From assembly GCA_940746715.1 (NCBI GenBank), contig CALNWN010000001.1, positions 310,001-374,000 on the forward strand: a DNA stretch of 64,000 bases, given 5' to 3'. Source of the DNA: an uncultured Paraburkholderia sp. (lineage in GTDB: Bacteria; Pseudomonadota; Gammaproteobacteria; Burkholderiales; Burkholderiaceae). This document shows positions 5,127-34,554 of this stretch, one piece after another. Under the pieces are notes generated by a model, which worked only from the letters and a program-made list of their open reading frames with translations, was not told the DNA's origin and searched no databases. A program made the translations under genes and the position numbers. The first letter of the stretch is position 1. Each line of letters begins with the position of its first letter.

Positions 5127-5383
5127 GTGAACCTGTCTCAACGCAACAACGTCCGCGTAGCGGGAAACGGCCCGGCAACGATGATCTTCTCGCATGGCTT
5201 CGGCTGTGATCAAACCATGTGGCGCTACGTCGCGCCGACATTCGAGGGACGCTACCGGACGGTGCTGTTCGATCTCGTCGGCAGCGGAGGATCGGATCTC
5301 GCGAGCTACGACTACCAGAAATATGGATCGCTGCACGGCTACGCGGCCGATGTATTGCAGATCGTTGAAGAGTTCGCGACCGG
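5127..5383 (+). pseudogene. RsbQ-like alpha/beta hydrolase, N-terminal fragment
   Basis: VNLSQRNNVRVAGNGPATMIFSHGFGCDQTMWRYVAPTFEGRYRTVLFDLVGSGGSD...; ends abruptly at a junction with histidine kinase sequence. Confidence 0.75.
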
Positions 5384-6105
5384 GTGCGGCTCGCGCAAAT
5401 CACGCAGAATCTGCTGAACAATGCGCTTCGCTACACGCCTCCCGGCGGCAAGATCTGGCTCGCGGTCTCGAGGCAAGGCGACGAAGCGGTGATTGCAGTG
5501 CGCGACAACGGCATCGGAATTCCCGCAGAAGACTTGCCGACCATCTTCGACATGTTTGCCCAGGCGGCCTCGGGGTGGGACTGGCGCTCGTGCGCGCGCT
5601 GGTCGAACTGCATCAGGGGCGCGTAACGGTTCACAGTTCTGGGCCTGGTCAGGGAAGCGCGTTCGAAGTCCGATTGCCCGCCTTACGTGAAGCTCCGCAA
5701 CCGTTAGCTCAGCCAACTAATCAGTCTCGCACGCCGTGCTGGACTTCGCGCCGCGTGCTGGTCGTCGATGACAATGAGGGAGCGGCTTCGAGTCTCAGTA
5801 CCTTGCTCGAGGTGGAAGGACACACGGTACACATGGCAACGAGCGGGCTCGAAGCGCTACGCTCAGTAGACGACTTCGTTCCTGAAGCCGTGATTCTTGA
5901 CCTGGGCTTGCCCGATATAGACGGAAGAGAAGTCGCGCGGCGCATCCGCGAGAACCACGGTTCGAGCGTCGCGCTGATTGCCCTCACCGGCTGGTCCCCG
6001 GACAAGGATGCCGCCGCGCGGCCGACCGACTTCGATGCTTACCTCGTGAAACCAGTCGACGTCGACGCGCTGCTGAGCGCGCTCGAGCGGATATCCGCGC
6101 AATGA
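5384..6105 (+). pseudogene. hybrid sensor histidine kinase/response regulator, C-terminal fragment with internal deletion
   Basis: VRLAQITQNLLNNALRYTPPGG (N box) and DNGIGIP (G1) in one frame, GLGVGLALVRALVELHQGRV (G2) plus receiver domain (VLVVDDN...LDLGLPDIDG...KPVD) in another. Confidence 0.8.
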
Positions 6106-6257
6106 GCCCGCCCGCGAGGGAAAACCCCTAAGTCCCGCCGCCCCGCCCCACATGGCTTTGCCCGCTTCGCGCTGCGAATCGTTAGCTTGACGATAACAAA
6201 CGCTTGCCGAAGGTGATTGAAGCCGCTTCCCCGTTTCCTCTAGAGTCACCCTGTCGT

Positions 6258-6298
6258 GGACAAAGCGGCGCCCGGCATTCACGAATGCCGCCTTGTCC
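6258..6298. repeat. imperfect hairpin (GGACAA...CGGCATTC-AC-GAATGCCG...TTGTCC)
   Basis: Inner 8-bp perfect arms and outer 6-bp perfect arms upstream of madL. Confidence 0.5.
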
Positions 6299-6407
6299 GC
6301 GCAACGCCGCCTCGCCAGAGGCCGATAAAGCCCGTCAGCAGCACTTCGCGTGAAAGCCGGGTAAGACACTAAAGCAAGCGTCGACGACGGTCGACTGGAG
6401 ACACGAG

Positions 6408-6807
6408 ATGATCATCTACGGAACTGCGCTGCTCGCTTTCTGCCACCTTGCGGGACTCTTTCTGGGCGATCTGCTCGGAGCCGCGATCGGCGTCAAGACC
6501 AACGTCGGGGGCGTCGGTATCGCGATGCTGCTGCTGATCTTCCTGCGCCTCTATCTGCACGGCAAAGGACTGCTGCCGAAGGAAACGGAAGCCGGCGTGG
6601 GCTTTTGGGGCGCCATGTACATCCCCGTCGTCGTGGCGATGGCGGCCAACCAGAACGTCGTCGCCGCGCTCAATCAAGGGCGGACCGGTCGCGCTGCTTT
6701 CGGCCTTGGGCGCAGTCGCCTTGTGTGCCGGCTGCATCGCGGTGCTGTCGCGCACCGGCCGCGACAGCACCTCGTTCATCAACGCCCCGCAACCCGAAGA
6801 GATCTGA
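6408..6807 (+). pseudogene. madL: malonate transporter subunit MadL, frameshifted
   Basis: MIIYGTALLAFCHLAGLFLGDLLGAAIGVKTNVGGVGIAMLLL...; native end KGGPVALLSALGAVALCAGCIAVLSRTGRDSTSFINAPQPEEI* is in the next frame after ~6672. Confidence 0.8.
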
Positions 6808-6821
6808 ACGAGGAGCCCGCC

Positions 6822-7589
6822 ATGATCCATATGATCGACAAAGTACTGATACAGAACGGCCTCGTCACCGCGTTTGCGCTTGTGGGACTCATCATGTGGG
6901 TCTCGTCGCTGATCTCGCGCAAGCTCACGTTCGGCCGCGTGCACGGCTCGGCGATCGCCATTCTGATCGGCCTCGTGCTCGCCTATCTGGGCGGCGCCTT
7001 CACCGCGGGTCAAAAAGGCTTGGCCGATCTGCCGCTCTTTGCCGGCGTCGGGCTGATGGGCGGCGCCATGCTGCGCGACTTCGCGATTGGCGCGACGGCC
7101 TTCGAGGTGCAGGCCACCGAAGCTCGCAAGGCGGGGCTCATCGGCGTGGTCTCGCTGCTGCTCGGCACGGTGCTGCCGTTTATCGTCGGCGCGAGCGTCG
7201 CTGACGCGTTCGGCTATACCGATGCGGTCAGCATGACGACCATCGGTGCGGGCGCGGTCACCTACATTGTCGGTCCGGTGACCGGTGCGGCGATCGGCGC
7301 GAGTTCCGACGTGATCGCGCTCAGCATTGCAACGGGTCTCATCAAGACGATCATCGTGATGATCGGCACGCCGCTCGCAGCCAATTTCATGGGCCTGAAG
7401 ACGCCGCGCTCGGCGATGATTTTCGGCGGCCTCGCGGGCACCGTCAGCGGCGTGAGCGCAGGCCTCGCGGCAACCGACCGGCGGCTCGTTCCCTACGGTG
7501 CGTTGATCGCCACGTTTCACACGGGCGTGGGTTGCCTGCTCTGACCTTCGCTGCTGTTCTTTACGACGCGCGCGCTGGTGGGCGCCTGA
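6822..7589 (+). pseudogene. madM: malonate transporter subunit MadM with internal TGA near the C terminus
   Basis: MIHMIDKVLIQNGLVTAFALVG...FHTGVGCLL*PSLLFFTTRALVGA*; TGA at 7542-7544 in frame with the expected end at 7587-7589. Confidence 0.8.
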
Positions 7590-7637
7590 GCCGTAAGCAA
7601 GCGGCTCGCGTGCGATACCGCGCGCGGTGCGACGTGC

Positions 7638-8545
7638 TCACCCCTGGTCGCGCGTGCGCAGGCGGCACACGGCCATGAGCGCGAGCAGGTTCGGGTCGCG
7701 CTCGCGCGCCCGCAGGAAGCTGACGCCGATGGTCTGGTGCATCATGTATTGCCGTTTGAGCTGGATGAACTGCACCTTGTCGCCGAACACGCCGCGCACG
7801 CGGCCCGGCAACAAGGTGTAGCCGACGCCTCCGCTCACGAGGTTCATCAGCGAGTAGATGTCGCCGACCTGCATCGTTACCTTCGGGGTGAAGTCCGCGA
7901 CGCGAAACGCCTCCTGAAAGCCGTGATAGGTCGCAAAGCCCTCGCCGAGCGAGACGAAGGTTTCGTCGCGGCAATCGCGCAGGTCGACCGCTTCGAGGTT
8001 GGCGTACGGCGAATTCGCGGGCGCCGCGAAGAAGATGTCGTCTTCGAAAAGCGGAATGGATTCGATCTCGGGCTCGGCATCGGGCAACGCCATCAACGCG
8101 GCGTCGATTGCGCCCTGCTTCAGCTTCTCGATCAATTCGGCGTTCGGTCCGAGCACGAGTTCCACCTGAAGCGTAGGCCGGCGCACCTTGATGTCGACGA
8201 CAATGCCAGGCACGGTCCTGATGGTGAGCGAATACAGCGAGCCGATTTTCAGCCGGTCCGACGAATAGCCCGCCGCGTCGCGCGAATGCCGTCGGACATG
8301 AGCGTGAGGACTTCCCCGGCGACGTCCGCGAGCATTTGCGCGGCGTCGGTAGACCTGAGATTGCGGCCTTCATGGCGAAACAGCGCGCAGCGCACGCCCT
8401 GTTCGAGCGAATGCAGCGCGCGGTGCACGCTCACCGTGCTCACGTTCAGCACCTCGGCCGCCTTGGCGAGGCTGCCGGTCCGCATGAAGGCGAGCAGCAC
8501 TTCCAGCTTGCGGAAGGTGATTTCGTCGTCGATTCGGTCGCGAAT
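7638..8545 (-). pseudogene. LysR-family regulator (malonate-utilisation regulator-like), frameshifted
   Basis: N-term IDDEITFRKLEVLLAFMRTGSLAKAAEVLNVSTVSVHRALHSLEQ and effector domain (PGIVVDIKVRRPTLQVELVLGPN...) lie in different frames; break ~8250. No ATG in frame upstream (ATT at 8543-8545). Confidence 0.7.
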
Positions 8546-8700
8546 GGGGAGCTGGGGAACGGTCGGAACCCTTCATTATCAGCTCGTGCGAGCCCGCGGC
8601 AAATAGCGTTACCCCGACGCGCGGGGGCGAGGCCGCGCGCTGCTTGTCTCACGCCGCCTCGCGTGCGCCGGCCTTGCTAAACCGCCTCGGTGATACCGCC

Positions 8701-8865
8701 TCAGTTGCGATGCTGATGGCGCTGCCAATGCCACACAGGCGTCTGGTCCAGTTGCCGCAGCATTTGAGTGCGGCGATATTCCCGCCGATAGTGGCCGACC
8801 GCGAAGATGATGCCGATCACGAGGACGGCCAGACCCATCACGACGCATACCAGTTCTTCGTCCAT
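8701..8865 (-). CDS. small single-TM hypothetical protein
   Basis: 54 aa MDEELVCVVMGLAVLVIGIIFAVGHYRREYRRTQM... Confidence 0.4.
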   Translation of the reverse strand: MDEELVCVVMGLAVLVIGIIFAVGHYRREYRRTQMLRQLDQTPVWHWQRHQHRN

Positions 8866-8914
8866 GGCTACCTTTCTCGTCAAAATTTCGATGCAACGAT
8901 GACAGGTTCGCGGC

Positions 8915-9111
8915 TTAGCGTTTGCGCGCCACCGCGTTGAGCATTGAATGCCCTGCGCCGGTGACATGCAGGCGCTGGTGTCCGGAAGCGAGTTCTTCGA
9001 GTGCGACGAGCTGGCGTTCAAGCAATGTGTCGAGCTCCCGCGACACATGTCGATCTGATCCGGAGCCGCCTTGACGAGCATGAGGGTGGCGAACTCCTTT
9101 GGGCTTAGCAT
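8915..9111 (-). pseudogene. small conserved hypothetical protein, frameshifted
   Basis: MLSPKEFATLMLVKAAPDQIDM / SRELDTLLERQLVALEELASGHQRLHVTGAGHSMLNAVARKR in adjacent frames. Confidence 0.5.
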
Positions 9112-9850
9112 AGTTGTCTCTCACAACGTTCTATTAATCCGGACGGAAGCACGAATTACCGCAGAATACCCGCCCGAGGGCAAATACCAGCAATTGTTTC
9201 CGGTTCGTTTTGATTATCGGGCAGCGACGCCTCGGAGTGTTAATTGTAAACTGAAAAAGTCCGATTACGGCGAATGAATAAATGCATTGACGCGCAGACG
9301 CGATAGTTGCGAATTAAACATATCATATGCGGCGGCTGGCGGATTACGCCATGTGGCGGCAGGAGCCGCCCGTTACTATGAGGAAAAGCGCGCTGCACGG
9401 CTCGCGGTCATGGCGTCACAGGGACACGGCGTTTAAATATGCAGCGGCGATTTACGGGTGAATTTATTAATCGCTATTTAATCCGCTTTTATGCAACCGG
9501 TATTTATTATGCGTTTTGATGACCGTCAATGAATTGACATACTATCATGACACCGTTATTACAATTTTCGGGCCGGACTGAATCGCTGCCCTCGTTGCCT
9601 CGCGGTTTAACGCCGAGCGTTATCTCGCCGCCGCGCTGCGCTGGCGTGAACGCGCGGGGCGCCATGGACCGCGCAGGCGCGCCGGTCGTGGATTGGCCGC
9701 ATGCCGTTGTTGCACGGCGCCCTCTGTTTCAGCGGCCGACATGGCGATACCGGCCTCGCGCTCGTCGTTGAACCCGCGGCCTGAATCGATCGCGCGCAGC
9801 AGCGTTTGCAGTTTCTTCGTCATCACAGCAAGGTTCCTCGTCAGCGACGC

Positions 9851-11290
9851 TCAGGCCGCGTTTAGCCGCGCGAGCTCCGTATCGACCAGAAGCTTCCTCA
9901 ACTCCGACACACACGAACCGCAGTTGCCGCCCGCCTTCAAACACGCCGTGATGTCGGCAGCGGTCTTGAGGCCCTGCTCGCGAATCGCCGTGCAAATCGT
10001 ATTGCGCCCCACGCCGAAGCACGAACAGACCGTCGGCCCCGTATCGGCGCCCTTGCCGATCGGCTGGCCGGACAGCACGCCGATGCGGTCCGCTTCGTCG
10101 AGCCTGTCCTTCGCAAACAGGCTCGCGAGCCATTCACGCGCGGGCAACTCGGGACGCGCCGAGAGAAACACGCAGTTCTCGATACGATCGTCGACCAGAT
10201 GCACCGCGCGATAAATGCCCGCCGCGCGGTCCTCGTATTCGAGCCAGTCCGCATGCGCGTCGTCGACGCCGAAGAGCGCGCGCCCAAGCGCCACGTTCAC
10301 CCTGCTCTCGCCAAGGGTATTGCGACCGGCAAGCTCGTAGCGCACGAACTGCGTGCCCTGCACGCGCGTCCAGTAGGTCACGCCGTCGAGCAGCGGCGCG
10401 CGCCGGCTCAGCGAAAAGCCATGCCACGCGACATGAAACTTGTCGACCCGCACCGGCGTGTGCTTGAACTCGGGCTCGCCGGAAACCGGATCGACCACCG
10501 GATTCACCACGGCGCCCACGCGCGCGTCGGACGCAACCTGATCGTTCCAGTGAATCGGCACGAACACGCTGCCGCGCGCCATGCCGCCGCCGTATTGCAC
10601 GCGCGACCATCGCGCCCCAGCGGCTCGATACGCGCGCGAGGTCGCCTTCGCGCACACCGCACAGCAACGCGTCCTGCGGGTGCATGTCGACGAATGCTTC
10701 CGTCACATGGCCCGCGAGTTTTTCCGATTTGCCCGTGCGGGTCATCGTGTGCCACTGATCGCGCACGCGGCCGGTGTTCAGCGTGAGCGGATAGTCGTCA
10801 TCGGGCGCATGGGCCGGCGCGCGCGGCGGCGTGGCGATGAAACGCGCGCGGCTGTCCGCGTGACTAAAGCGGCGGTCGTCGAAAAGACGCGCGGTGCCCG
10901 GCGCGGCCGCGTCGCCGCTCGCGCGCACGGGCCACTGCACAGGCCGCAAGGACCCGTAGCCGTCGCTGCCGAGGCCGACCAGCCCGGCGAGATTGAACGC
11001 ACGACGCACGCCGCCGCTGTGTTCGTCGCCCGATTGCGCGGCGGCTTCGCTATCTTCGTTGCGCCATGCGCTGAGCCGCGCGTGTTCGTCGAAGATCTAG
11101 TGCTGGCTCGCGAAGCCGAAGCCCGCATAGCCCATGCGCCGCGCCACGTCGCAGATGATTTGCCAGTCCGGGCGCGCCTCGCCCGGCGCCGGCAGAAAAG
11201 CACGCTGGCGCGAAATCCTGTGCTCCGAATTCGTCACCGTGCCGTCCTTCTCGCCCCAGCCGAGCGCGACCTCCCGCTGACGCCGGGCGC
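9851..11290 (-). pseudogene. assimilatory nitrate reductase large subunit (NasA-like), C-terminal remnant
   Basis: VALGWGEKDGTVTNSEHRISRQRAFLPAPGEARPDWQIICDVARRMGYAGF; NTGRVRDQWHTMTRTGKS; C-terminal CSCFGVGRNTI...GGNCGSC BFD-like [2Fe-2S] domain. In-frame TAG at 11097-11099, frameshift ~10600, N-terminal part absent. Confidence 0.8.
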
Positions 11291-12174
11291 CCGCGACGTC
11301 GAGCAGCACCATGATCGAGTCGCCCGCCTGCGGCGCGGGCCGCGACATGACCAGATAACGCGTGGTGTGGCCAGGGCGGCGCGGATCCGGAAAGCGGCCG
11401 AGCCACGCGCCCGCGCCCCAGTCGCCGATGCGCCGGTACTGCAGCGGCTCGACGTTGCGTCCCGCGTATTGGCGCGATGCCTGAATCTCGCGCTGCTGCT
11501 GCGCGGTGATGGGTCGTAGCGCGGTGAACTTCCAGGCGGCGACGGTCGAGATGACGATCACGCCATTGCGGTCGATCACCATCGCCGCTTCATTCGGACG
11601 GCGCCACGCCGCCTCCAGTTCGTCGACGCTGACCTTGACTGCCGGCCGCGCCGACCGGCGTGCCGCCGTCGCGCACGGCACTCGCGAAATAAAACCCCGG
11701 AATGCCGGTATTGGTGCCGATGCCGAAGAAGCGCCCGGCGCCACGCGCGAGCGCGTCCTTGAAGTAAGGCCGGTACGAAAAGTTGGTGCCGACAAAGCTG
11801 ACCGGCTGATTCCGGTTGCTCGCGGCAATCACCGAGCCTTGCAGGTCGATCACATCCACGGCGACGCTGCCCGCCTCCTGATTCACGGCTTCCAGATAGG
11901 TATTGACGCTGTGCAAAAGCGCAGCGGTGGCGCGCGGTCCGGCTTCGAGCAACGCGCGCACGCTGTCCTGTCGCGCGACGATGGCGGGCATCGTCTCGAA
12001 GCGGCCGAGTTCGCTTTTCAGGCTCGCGCCGTACAAATCGAGCTGATGGGCGCCCGCCTCGGCGAGCGCGTCGATCGCGCGGTTCCAGGCGAGTTCGATC
12101 GCCGCCGCGGCCATGCCGACGTACAGCAAGGCCGCAACCGCCCACGCCCACAGCGGTATCCCTCTTATTCTCAC
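11291..12174 (-). pseudogene. DctB-like sensor histidine kinase, periplasmic sensor fragment
   Basis: AIELAWNRAIDALAEAGAHQLDLYGASLKSELGRFETMPAIVARQD...FFGIGTNTGIPGFYFA..., frameshift ~11655, then VKVSVDELEAAWRRPNEAAMVIDRNGVI...; joins nitrate reductase at ~11290; kinase domain absent. Confidence 0.75.
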
Positions 12175-12244
12175 TTGATGTTCGACCTCGCGATGACCCG
12201 ATGCCCGACGACGCCACGCGCGCGCCGCACCGGAGCGCGACGCG

Positions 12245-13526
12245 TTACACCCCATGCGCGAGCACGATGAGCGTGAGCGTGACGACAATCGCGCCGCCGA
12301 TGCGCGTGGCGATCTGCGCAAACGGCATCAGTTGCATGCGGTTGGCCGCCGTGAAGATCGCGACGTCGCCGGTGCCGCCCTGCCCGCTGTGACATGCGTT
12401 CACGATCGCGGTGTCGATAGGGTACATCTTAAGCTTGCGGGCAACCAGAAAACCGGTGCCCATCAGCGTCGCCACGGTGGCGACGATCGTCACGATATTG
12501 GCGATGGTGAACGCGGCGGTCAACTTGTCCCACAGCGTCATCGCCACGCCGATGGCAAACAGCAGCGGATACGTCACCGCGGTCGAGAAGAACTTGTAGA
12601 CGACGAACGCGCCCTCCTGCAGTTGCGGGGACACGGCCCGCGCCAGCTTCACGAGCACCGCGAGAAACAGCATCGCGACCGACGCGGGCAGGCCGAACAG
12701 GTTGCGGCACATCAGGCCGAACAGATACAGCGTGATGGCCGTGATGCCGGCCGCCGCGATGTGCGTGACGTCGATATGGCTGCGGATTTCCTCTTCCGCG
12801 GGCGCCATTTCGTCGGTCTCGCCGACTTGTAGACGTCCGTCGCCGGTGAGATGCGGAAAGCGCTTGCCCAGCATGACGGGCGGCAGGACCTGCGCAAAGA
12901 GCTCGCCCTGCGGCAAATGCATGATTTCCGAATAGCCGACCGACAGCGGAATCGCCCCTTCGCTGACACCGCCCGCCATGATCGGCACGACGATATAGAG
13001 TAGCGTATGGCGTGCGCCGAGGCCGAATGCCGAGCCGACCGCAATGCCCCACAATGGCGGCGGCCAGCGAACCGAGCGCGAGCGGCACGAAGATCTTCAC
13101 GAAGCCCTTGATCAGCACGCGCCGGTCCATGCTCAGAATACTGCCGACGATAATCGACGCAATGAACAGATACAGGAAGTTGGTCGACTTGGTGAATTCG
13201 GTCGTGAGATGAAGGATCGGCTTCGGCAGCACGTGGTAGTACGTGAGCGCCGAAGGCACGAAGGTCGCGCAGATCGCCGCCGCGCCGATATTGCGCAGAA
13301 GCGGCAGACGCTTGCCCAGCTCGGCGCAGGTGAAACCGAAGAACGGGAGCACGGCGATCGCCATGGAAATCTCGCCCGGCATCTTGCCCGTCACGGCAAA
13401 GCCGACGATCAGCGCCAGCAGAATGAAATAGACCGGCAGCGGAATGATGCCGATGCGGTATTCCATCAGCTTCCACCAGCCTTCGGGCCAGAATCGGGTG
13501 GTCGCATTGGACGCGTTGGGACGCAT
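12245..13526 (-). pseudogene. 2-hydroxycarboxylate transporter family (CitS/MaeN-like) permease, frameshifted
   Basis: MEYRIGIIPLPVYFILLALIVGFAVTGKMPGEISMAIAVL... frame change ~13050 then GIAVGSAFGLGARHTLLYIVVPIMAGGVSEGAIPLSVGY...ACHSGQGGTGDVAIFTAANRM. Confidence 0.85.
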
Positions 13527-13834
13527 TCGCGGCTTCGGGCGTGGGCGTCGGGCGCGAACGGTCGTGGATATGGGCGGGTGTGGACAAAACAGATCTCCTT
13601 GCTTGGGCGCGCCACAGTCGCGTGGCGGCGTCGCGTTTCAATGCGGATGTCGGCGCATTCGGCTGCGGCTCTTCGAGCCAGGTACGAGGCGGATCGGGTG
13701 AAACCCCGAAGGGGAAGTTGAAATGGAGCGCGCCGGGTCAGCGTCGCGCAGGCCGGCGAGGCGTGTGCAGGGTCATGACTGTCTCCGTGAGGGGTCTTGT
13801 GGATTGCGCTCGGGTGCTCGTGGATACCTATAAT

Positions 13835-13863
13835 GCAAGGCCCATGCCAGTGGCGGGCCTTGC
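13835..13863. repeat. perfect 9-bp inverted repeat GCAAGGCCC-N11-GGGCCTTGC
   Basis: Direct reading; no T-tract, so a terminator is not claimed. Confidence 0.5.
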
Positions 13864-13973
13864 GGGCCGCATCGCAAACCATTGATTTTTCTAATTAATT
13901 TTCTTGACTAAACGATGCCGGAATCAGCGCGTTCCGGGAGTTCAGAATTAGCGCCGGCGAGCAGGCTGAGAGT

Positions 13974-14806
13974 TCAGCCGTCCGTGGAAAGCGTGACCGC
14001 CTCCCACGCAGCGATTTCGTCGGACAGCGTGGAGAGCTTCGCGCGTACGAGGCCGAGCGCATCGCTTCCCAGCAGCAGATGCGCGGGCGGCTCACCGGCG
14101 GCGATGGCGGCCAGCATGGCGCGCGCGGCTTTCATCGGGTCGCCAGCTGCTTGCCGCTTTTCTCCTGACGCGCCTTTCGCACGGGATCGAACACCGCGTC
14201 GTAGTCTGCAATGGAGCGCGGCGTGCGGGCCATCGAGCGCCCCGCCCAATCGGTGCGAAACGAGCCGGGCGCCACGGCGGTGACGGCGATCCTGAACGGC
14301 CGTACTTCCTGGCCGAGCGCTTCCGAGATTCCCTCGAGCGCGAACTTGCTGCCGCAGTAGTATGCAATGCCGGGCATGGTGATGAAGCCGCCCATCGACG
14401 TGATGTTGAGAATGTGGCCGCGCCGGCGTTTGCGCATGTAGGGCAGCATGGCTTTCATCATCGCCACCGCGCCGAACAAGTTGACGTCGAACTGCCGGCG
14501 CATTTCGGCAAGCGGCGCCTCTTCCATGACGCCTTCGTGGCCATAGCCGGCGTTGTTCACGAGGACGTCCACCGGTCCGACGCTTGCCTCGATGTCGGCA
14601 ACGACGCCGTCGATCCGCTCGAACTCCGTCACGTCGAGCAGGCGGCCGAATGCGCTGCGGGGCGCGAGCGCCTCCAGCTCGGCGCGTGCCGCCTCGCTGC
14701 GCACGGTGCCGACCACACGATGGCCCGCCGCGAGCGCCTCCTGAGCCAACGCGCGGCCGAAGCCGCTGCTTGCGCCGGTAATGAGCAATGTTCTGCCTGA
14801 TGCCAT
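13974..14806 (-). pseudogene. short-chain dehydrogenase/reductase, 3' frameshift
   Basis: TGASSGFGRALA, NNAGYG, YYCGSKFALEG motifs intact; C-term PMKAARAMLAAIAAGEPPAHLLLGSDALGLVRAKL is in the next frame (~14145). Confidence 0.75.
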
Positions 14807-14964
14807 GACATCCCTTTCCTGAAGTTAAACGGAAAGTGCATACTATTCTCCCGCCGCCGCTATTTTTAGGCCCAATCGTGGCATTTTCTTGCCTGTTTCT
14901 ATGAGCATTCAACGAGCGCAGACCACGCGCCGCGCGCGCACCTTCTCGCCAGGACCGCCGGGAC

Positions 14965-15874
14965 ATGACAGCGCTCCTGCGCGCGCTGGCTCCGAAGGAA
15001 GGCTACAACCTCACCGCGCTTGAAAGCGTGCGGATTCTGCGCTCGGACCGCAGCCTCGCGTCCACGCCCGTGCTGTATGACCCGGGCATCGTGATCGTCT
15101 GCCAAGGAAGCAAGCGCGGCTATTTCGGCGATCAGTTGTATGTGTATGACGAGCAGCACTATCTGGCGGTGTCGGTGCCCGTGCCCTTCACGATGGAGAC
15201 CGACGCGACGCCCGGGCATCCGCTCCTTGCCGTCTACCTGCATCTCGACTTCAAGCTCGCCGCGGAACTCATGGCGCAAATCGAAGCTCACTCTCTGCCC
15301 CGGCGCGCGCAGGCGCCGCAAAGCATGATGTCGAGTCCGCTGGACGACGCACTGCGCAACACCGTGCTGCGCCTGCTGGACGCGCTGAACCGGCCGCTCG
15401 ACGCAGCGGTTCTCGATCCGTCGCTGCTGCGCGAGCTTTACTTTCGCGTGCTCACCGGTCCGCAGGGCGACGCAATGCGCGCGGCGCTCGGCATGCACGG
15501 TCAGTTCGGCAAGATCGGCAAGGCGCTGCGCCGCATCCATTCCGACTACGCGCGCGCTCGACCTCGCCCTGCTGGCCCGCGAGGCCGGCATGAGCGTTCC
15601 CACGTTTCATGCGCATTTCAAGGCCGTCACGCAGACCTCGCCGATGCAGTACGTCAAATCGACGCGCCTGCACCAGGCCCGCCTGCTGATGCTGCGACAG
15701 GGCATGACCGCGGAGGCCGCGAGCGATGCGGTCGGTTACGCAAGCACCTCGCAATTCAATCGGGAATTCAAGCGGCTCTTCGGACTCACGCCGGCAGCGG
15801 AGGCGCGGCGCATGCGCGCGAGCTTCGCGATTCCGCCCGCGCATGCCGGCTCTGAATATGTGTCGTCGCATTGA
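14965..15874 (+). pseudogene. AraC-family regulator, frameshifted before the HTH
   Basis: MTALLRALAPKEGYNLTALESVRILRSDRS... and HTH part MSVPTFHAHFKAVTQTSPMQYVKSTRLHQARLLM...VGYASTSQFNREFKRLFG are in different frames; break ~15555. Confidence 0.75.
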
Positions 15875-16880
15875 ACCGGGAGCTGGGCCGTCGCCCGGTG
15901 TCAGGCAGCCGCGCCGTCGCGCGGAAGGGCGCGATCTTCGGACGGGCGCGGCGCTGGGCGGCGTGCTCGCGCCCCTCGCGCCCTTCACGGGCAGTGCCGC
16001 GCACGCGCAAGGCGACAGCAAACGCATCCGCATCGGCTTTCAGAAATACGGCAACTTCGTAGTGCTGAAGGCGCGCGGCACGCTGGAGAAGCGGCTCGCC
16101 AGCGAGGGCATCGCTGTGCAGTGGCTCGAATTCCCCGCCGGGCCGCAGTTGCTGGAAGGGCTGAATGCAGGTGCCGTCGATGTCGGCACCGTCGGCGAGA
16201 CGCCGCCTATCTTCGCGCAGGCGGGACGCGTCGACTTCGTTTATATCGGCAACGAGCCGCCTGCGCCGCGAGGCGAAGCGATCGTCGTCCCGCAGAATTC
16301 CCCCATTCGTACGGTCGCACAATTGCGCGGCAAGAAGGTGGCGTTCAACAAGGGCTCGAATGTCCACTATCTGCTCGTGAAGGCGCTGCAGCAAGCGGGA
16401 CTCACCTACTCCGACATCGAGCCCGTCTACCTGACACCCGCCGATGCGCGCGCCGCCTTCGTGCAAGGCAGCGTGGACGCGTGGGTGATCTGGGATCCGT
16501 ATCTCGCCGCGATCGAACGGCAGGCGAATGCGCGCACCATCGCGAATGGCGAGGGGCTCGTGCGCAATACGCAGTACTACGTCGCGGCACGCAAGTTCGC
16601 GGCAACGCAGCCGCAAGTGCTGAATGCACTGCTCGAAGAGGTGAACGCCGTCGACAGTTGGGGACGCGAAAATGTGCCGCAAGTGGCGGCGCTGCTGTCG
16701 CCGCTCGTCGGCCTCGACGCGGCCACGCTCGAAGTCGCGCTCAAGCGCACCGGCTACGGCGTGCAGCTGATCAGCGAGGCGACGCTCGCTTATCAACTGC
16801 AGATCGCCGACACGTTCAGCGCGCTGAAGCTGATTCCCGGCAAGCTGAGCGTCGCGGACGCGCGCTGGAAAACCACCTGA
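15871..16880 (+). CDS. aliphatic sulfonate ABC transporter substrate-binding protein (SsuA-like); 5' end ambiguous
   Basis: IRIGFQKYGNFVVLKARGTLEKRL...GTVGETPPIFAQAG...LRGKKVAFNKGSNVHYLL; mature domain complete but the signal-peptide start is not clean in this frame. Confidence 0.7.
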
Positions 16881-26696: not shown

Positions 26697-27366
26697 GATT
26701 TATCGCATTGCAATATTTGATGGTGAATAGCAATATATGTTCACCAGAATAGCGATGCAATCGGGCTTACCAGCGAGAAAGCAAGGTGAGCGCAAGGCGA
26801 ATGAATGCCGGCGCAGGCGGCGGGCGACATCGCCGGGCGCATCCATGAGGATCGACGGGAAAGTGATTTTTCGTGAAGCTGACGCGGCGCGGCGAACTGC
26901 GCGCCTTGCAGGAAAGATGCGCCGCCGTCGTGGCGGGCCGCGGCGCCCGCACGCAGCGAGCGAACAGTTGCGCTTTTGCGTCGCTCGGCGCGCGCCCAGA
27001 AAAAGCTGCAGACAAGCTGCGGCCGAAAAACAAACACACACGCCGAACGTTTGGGAACGCTGACGCCTTACAAATCGTATCCACGTTTGCGTAGCGCGAG
27101 AATCGGGTGTTTTGTATGAAAACATGCCCGCTTCCCGGCAAAAGCCGATAATAAGCCGGAGTTCGCGTATTGAGGACTGCGACGCGTCGCAAAAAAACAA
27201 CGGCGGTCTGAGTCGGCTGGCCGAAAAATCACAGGACGTGGCAGTGATCGCCATAGACGGCCCTGCGACGATGTGGAATCATCCACCGACCGGCCCGCAC
27301 CGAAATTGTGCCGACGGCCAGCTCCTGCTAACGCGCAGTCAACCACGTGGACACAGATCCCGCGCA

Positions 27367-31498: not shown

Positions 31499-31963
31499 TG
31501 CAGCCTCCAGTGCGGAGATTAGCGAGGCCGGCTCGTGGCGGGCCAGCGACACGCCATACGCCGCGATGCCGCGGCGCTTTAACGTCCGGGATCGGGGTTG
31601 GATAGTCTTCCTATCTACACGATCGGCATGAGGCCACGAGGCGCATAGCTCATCATAGATGGGCCCACGGAATCGACATCGTCGGAATACAGCAGCGAAT
31701 GGCCAACTTTTATAGCGACGCCGCCATGTCTAGTGTCGGATGGCATGAAGCAACTGCTGTTGTGGATTGTGCAGTGATGGGCTGTGCCGGAGGTCTGGCA
31801 TTGCCGCGCGGGGCGCGCTTCAAGGAAGATGTACCGTTACGCCGCGTGACGGTATCAAGGGGGGCGCGTCCGCGAAGAGACAGAGACGCCGACGCCGTAC
31901 CGTCGCCGATGCCGTCGGTTACGCGTCGTTGTCAGCGGACGGCGGCAGACCAAGATAGGAAGC

Positions 31964-33741: not shown

Positions 33742-34554
33742 TCAACCATGAAACGGAGGCCGGGGCGCATGCGGCGCATCGGCGGCGGCTTCGGCTCGTG
33801 CCGCCCGCTCCGACGGGCTCGACACTTCGCCCGTCGTTGCGCACAAAGGTGCCGAGGACGCCGGGTCGAGCGGACGTGCCTCGTGCGCCGCGGGCACGAC
33901 AGTCGCTACCGGCACAGTTCCCGCCGGCGCCACAACCGTCTTCGCTGCTGCGTCATATGCGAGTGCAACCCCGGGCGCCACGCCGGGAGGCACGGCGGGC
34001 TCGCCCACCGGCTCCGCGCGATACACCGGAAAACCTGCCGTGGCCGGCACCACCGGTTCCCGGCGGTTTGCCTCGCGGTTCGCCGCGTTTTTTGCGGCGT
34101 CTTTTGCAGCCTGCCTGTCGGCGCGCTCGGCCGCCACGGCTTCAGCCACGCGCAACTTTTCGCGCCGCCGCACCGCGCCCGCCAAACGCACGCCGCCAAG
34201 ACCGAGCACGAGCAGCACCACACCCGTAAGCACCGCGACGATCTGGCCGAAGCCGTTCAGCGACGGCGTATGCAGCCCGAGCAGCCAGACCAGCATCAGC
34301 ACGCCGGTGAGCCAGTTCACGTGACCGACCGCCCTTGCGACCGACGACGTCAGCGCCCCGTCGAACGACGCATGCAAGGCAAGCCACGCGAGCCCGACGA
34401 GCGCGACGCCAAACGCCTCTGGCCGACCAGCGCCGGCTGCGTTTGCACCAGCAGCAGCGTACAACGAAGTCCAGGGCGTCAGCAGGAACAGCAGGCCGAA
34501 CCCAAGCAGCAACAATGCATCGACGACGAGTACAGCGCGCAGCAATGGCTTCAT
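33742..34554 (-). CDS. hypothetical membrane protein between guaA and guaB
   Basis: 270 aa, four hydrophobic segments, Ala/Arg-rich C-terminus. Confidence 0.6.
   Translation of the reverse strand: MKPLLRAVLVVDALLLLGFGLLFLLTPWTSLYAAAGANAAGAGRPEAFGVALVGLAWLALHASFDGALTSSVARAVGHVNWLTGVLMLVWLLGLHTPSLNGFGQIVAVLTGVVLLVLGLGGVRLAGAVRRREKLRVAEAVAAERADRQAAKDAAKNAANREANRREPVVPATAGFPVYRAEPVGEPAVPPGVAPGVALAYDAAAKTVVAPAGTVPVATVVPAAHEARPLDPASSAPLCATTGEVSSPSERAARAEAAADAPHAPRPPFHG

Follow-up and report, generated by a model that had tools for sequence, protein, structure and literature searches.

The window, a stretch of 64,000 nucleotides from an uncultured Paraburkholderia sp., carries a reading frame in which part of a DctB-like sensor runs on into assimilatory nitrate reductase, which raises the question of whether such a frame represents a new fusion gene, an error of assembly or the debris of two lost genes. 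The original prediction described a nitrate reductase fused to the sensor by a deletion near 11290. The frame is indeed present in the sequence, and comparison with related genomes led us to conclude, with a probability of about 0.95, that a chromosomal deletion of 10,350 bp between perfect 11-bp direct repeats in dctB and nasA left this feature behind as a scar. The coordinates of the remnants are collected in Table 1.

Table 1. Remnant genes, lesions and deletion junction at the dctB/nasA locus (window coordinates)
Feature	Position	Strand	Basis
Pseudogene of a 2HCT-family (2-hydroxycarboxylate) transporter, next to dctB on its upstream side	12245..13646	-	Pfam and alignment with LMG 22037
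dctB', pseudogene consisting of the 5' half of the DctB-like sensor kinase gene and limited to the periplasmic sensor part	11258..12255	-	
dctB +1 frameshift (one-base insertion)	11643	-	Comparison with LMG 22037
Deletion junction, the one copy left of the 11-bp direct repeat CGCGCTCGGCT	11258..11268	-	Comparison with LMG 22037
'nasA, 3' half of the assimilatory nitrate reductase gene, pseudogene	9851..11268	-	Pfam and DNA identity
nasA nonsense codon, GAG to TAG	11099-11097	-	Comparison with LMG 22037
nasA 2-bp deletion (frameshift), approximate	10604..10606 (~10605)	-	Comparison with LMG 22037
243-aa ORF of the original prediction, chance open frame over the scar, not a gene	11097..11828	-	ORF list and frame analysis

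The closest named relative found was Paraburkholderia phenoliruptrix LMG 22037, whose contig NZ_CADIKB010000005.1 (G041:C5, hereafter C5) aligns with the window end to end, in reverse orientation, at ~92-96% identity. In this strain the dctB-like gene and nasA are both whole, lie 10.3 kb apart and have the same order and strand as in the window. A narK-nirB-nirD-nasA cluster stands there beside an operon of 2HCT transporter, dctB and regulator; genes, order, strand and neighbours are like those of the window, which differs in that it is without the 10,350 bp between the repeats and in that its remnants are broken. Both outer flanks of the join are collinear between the two genomes. The same order and strand of dctB and nasA were also found in P. 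rhynchosiae WSM 3937 (G044, also listed as G109; ~10.3 kb apart) and in genome G143 (10.4 kb apart), whereas P. ginsengiterrae and some other relatives carry nasA upstream of 2HCT-dctB. In P. phenoliruptrix HU18 (G011:C2:168000-187000), nasA and both outer flanks are kept and no 2HCT-dctB-regulator block separates the nitrate cluster from the short-chain dehydrogenase gene next to it; the block seems to have been lost from this locus independently.

Two blocks of C5 meet at the join: window positions 5377-11268 align with C5:137518-131566, and positions 11258-15932 with C5:121226-116456. In the window the two blocks share 11 bp; in LMG 22037, 10,339 bp separate them. The repeat CGCGCTCGGCT occurs in LMG 22037 twice as a perfect match, once in dctB (C5:121216-121226) and once in nasA (C5:131566-131576), and exactly once in the window, where dctB and nasA flank it directly and no bases have been added. 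With one copy left, the gap and the overlap together give a deletion of 10,350 bp, and since the order is intact in LMG 22037 and the repeat stands at each breakpoint, the scar is best explained as a deletion between short direct repeats. The proposed deletion between the sensor gene and nasA, as well as the search for direct repeats by comparison with an intact relative, is thereby borne out; the join itself lies at 11258-11268 and not near 11290. It is in frame because both copies of the repeat share the same codon phase. Each half is ~92% or more identical to its own orthologue over ~1 kb, the matches end sharply at the repeat, and an exact match of at least 11 bp was seen in only 0.05% of 2,000 random position pairs, so that chance is not an issue. 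No match spanning the junction was found in the other genomes of the genus that were searched, and the matches of the relatives split at the repeat.

The surrounding 280 kb contain 23 clean deletions of at least 64 bp, eight of them with exact repeats of at least 7 bp at the join, compared with 1.1% at random positions; the dctB/nasA deletion is the largest of the 23 and has the longest repeat. Further deletions relative to LMG 22037 (88 bp to 1.8 kb) lie at window positions 2238, 5383, 19214, 21171, 22050 and 38764; their joins show exact repeats of 2-7 bp. Stretches of 119, 90 and 70 bp (26868-26986, 31868-31957 and 33914-33983) are unmatched on the LMG 22037 contig and were not found a second time in the surrounding 280 kb.

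The deletion would most likely have arisen by RecA-independent misalignment or strand annealing at the short repeats, which would leave one repeat copy. RecA-independent deletion between short direct repeats is known in bacteria, for example in E. coli K-12 (PMC5426353), where the sequence between the repeats is lost and one copy is kept, as in the window. The E. coli work was a genetic assay, whereas the present deletion is deduced by comparison and its RecA independence is presumed from the shortness of the repeat. We assume a single deletion event, although a history of several steps may have reached the same end point, and the deletion might have become fixed because the genes were dispensable.

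What is left on either side of the join is broken. The sensor remnant has 92% DNA identity to the LMG 22037 block and shows a weak Pfam match to dCache_1, below the curated cut-off. The LMG 22037 orthologue has the kinase domains; the window copy is reduced to the sensor half, which carries a frameshift, and the combination of periplasmic sensor, HisKA and HATPase_c expected of a DctB-like sensor histidine kinase is not found in the window. The nasA remnant retains the last 40 positions of Molybdopterin, a Molydop_binding domain divided between two frames and a BFD-like [2Fe-2S] domain, with a DNA identity of 85% to HU18 and 92.7% over the LMG 22037 block. All four NasA domains (Fe4S4, Molybdopterin, Molydop_binding and BFD) are present in the LMG 22037 orthologue; the window does not hold them in one frame. 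The TAG at 11097 and the frameshift near 10600, both of which had been predicted, were recovered as the GAG to TAG change and the 2-bp deletion of Table 1. Judged from these domains and lesions, the nasA and dctB copies of the window are both pseudogenes. The neighbouring transporter gene, with a 2HCT match at 12245-13054 (Pfam, E 2.1e-85), carries an 8-bp deletion (~13519), a 1-bp insertion (~13050) and an in-frame 45-bp deletion (~12875) relative to LMG 22037.

The 243-aa frame follows from this arrangement. Up to residue 191 its sensor part shares 87-89% identity with the DctB-like proteins of LMG 22037 and P. rhynchosiae, and from residue 188 on the frame is up to 95% identical to NasA, with a Molybdopterin match in the C-terminal part (Pfam, E 2.4e-10). 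The protein matches switch at residues 188-191, and most relatives match either the sensor or the NasA part. The passage from sensor to nitrate reductase is in frame across the join, as had been claimed, but not at the start, where the first ~62 residues come from dctB in a frame not its own; the proper one is entered only past the one-base insertion. Because of this insertion, translation from the native dctB start gives 221 residues and then meets a stop at 11592-11590, ahead of the join, and no fusion protein is therefore expected. The term "fused" calls for correction, since the join, in frame by coincidence, lies beyond the reach of translation from the dctB start.

A real fusion gene, in which an expressed sensor part feeds into or tethers the nitrate reductase fragment, could be argued from the in-frame join and from the length of the open frame. 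Such a gene is hardly conceivable, since no frame stays open from the native start through the join, the beginning of the ORF is out of frame, the TAG ends it ~56 codons past the join, and the nitrate reductase fragment lacks the Fe4S4 domain as well as most of the molybdopterin domain; an in-frame join is expected by chance in one case out of three. The open frame across the join is, on the reading of the frames, a coincidence without a working fusion protein. A tandem duplication or other rearrangement, joining the end of dctB to an upstream nasA, was an early idea taken from the gene order of P. ginsengiterrae and several other relatives, from which a simple deletion cannot give the join. 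It was dropped as extremely improbable, given that dctB lies upstream of nasA, at a distance of ~10.3-10.4 kb, in LMG 22037, P. rhynchosiae and G143, and that the outer flanks are both collinear with the window.

It is also very unlikely, if slightly less so, that the join is an artefact, i.e., a mis-join at the 11-bp match or the collapse of a region, while the cell itself has whole copies of dctB and nasA. The draft assembly consists of 51 contigs, and the join, which is known from the assembly sequence, sits on a short repeat. Against an artefact, the join is internal to a contig of 1.02 Mb, both remnants bear further disabling mutations, many similar deletions occur nearby, and rpoBC and the nuo genes are open. 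Moreover, nirB, nirD, narK and the N-terminal half of NasA are on no other contig of an assembly with a completeness of 99.93%. Intact copies around a collapsed region, named beforehand as a possible refutation, did not appear: a search for the missing segment in the rest of the assembly found it absent, the matches being mainly kinase and regulator paralogues at 66-75% identity and a few short ones. A deletion between the repeats remains by far the preferred reading.

The segment deleted relative to LMG 22037 comprises, on the sensor side, the HisKA and HATPase_c domains and an NtrC-type sigma-54 response regulator. On the nitrate side it comprises a NarK-family nitrate/nitrite transporter (284.6 bits, under the model cut-off of 311.7), NirB, NirD, a NirB-like FAD reductase of 525 aa and the NasA N-terminal half, which contains the Fe4S4 domain. 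The original prediction was right that the kinase domain and the N-terminal part of NasA are gone, and right about a loss of nitrogen functions, the extent of which it understated by nirB, nirD and the NarK-type transporter. No NirB above the family cut-off was found in the whole genome; NirB is present in 140 of the 148 genomes of the genus, and several of the exceptions are small genomes (4.1-5.2 Mb). The gene content predicts that neither nitrate nor nitrite should serve the cell as a nitrogen source via NasA/NirBD. An amt-family ammonium transporter is intact. The gene glnD (protein-PII uridylyltransferase; 62028-64597, reaching beyond the window end to contig position 374597), which had been described as broken, carries several frameshifts and a TAG.

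The decay extends beyond this locus. The genome measures 5.18 Mb, against 7.3 Mb in a relative, and is about 5% diverged from LMG 22037. Among 215 genes predicted on the 285-kb LMG 22037 contig, 85 are intact here, 74 frameshifted or stopped, 22 partly deleted and 34 gone; this census is approximate, as it used a simple gene finder, covers the matching contig only and would score as gone any gene outside the 280 kb taken from the window genome (contig C1, 200001-480000). Small frameshifts amount to 0.63 per kb and are weakly clustered by gene, so that on this evidence alone they might be sequencing errors. However, rpoB, rpoC and nuoA-N (~23 kb; most nuo identities judged by order and length) are all open and of normal lengths where ~15 frameshifts would be expected, and 28 stops were made by substitution; we therefore take the decay as real. 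The gene mutS, the only one checked for a mismatch-repair defect behind the many 1-nt indels, is open and above its cut-off. At codon positions 1 and 2, counted with outgroups as a test of relaxed selection, the dctB and nasA remnants showed no clear excess on the window branch (29:28 against 26:31 on the LMG branch, p = 0.7), a pattern that gives no clear sign of neutral decay and may fit a recent loss; the other broken genes gave a weak signal of relaxed selection by codon position (p = 0.03).

Whether these observations describe a lineage in an early, fast phase of erosion, in which small indels and short-repeat deletions have broken or removed ~60% of the orthologues sampled, with nasA, nirBD and glnD as casualties fitting a host that supplies reduced nitrogen, we regard as evenly balanced. 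Host restriction of the lineage would be the natural inference; literature searches turned up no symbiont closely related to P. phenoliruptrix. Paraburkholderia bonniea and P. hayleyella have reduced genomes in which nitrate reductase genes were reported absent (PMC9601139), a loss shared with the window genome. The genomes of these two species are described as stable and without an excess of pseudogenes (PMC9601139), whereas the window genome is full of recent pseudogenes.

The scar clearly illustrates known processes; as a routine deletion scar, it implies that the strain should not assimilate nitrate. Annotators should not take the 243-aa frame, a "nitrate reductase" with a sensor-like N-terminus, for a gene. 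Less usual is the heavy erosion at only ~5% divergence from a 7.3-Mb relative. Our analysis provides a well-resolved step of reductive evolution, for which the base-level breakpoints, the repeat, the lost genes and a close intact relative are all known, and this genome is well suited to dating gene losses at the onset of genome erosion.
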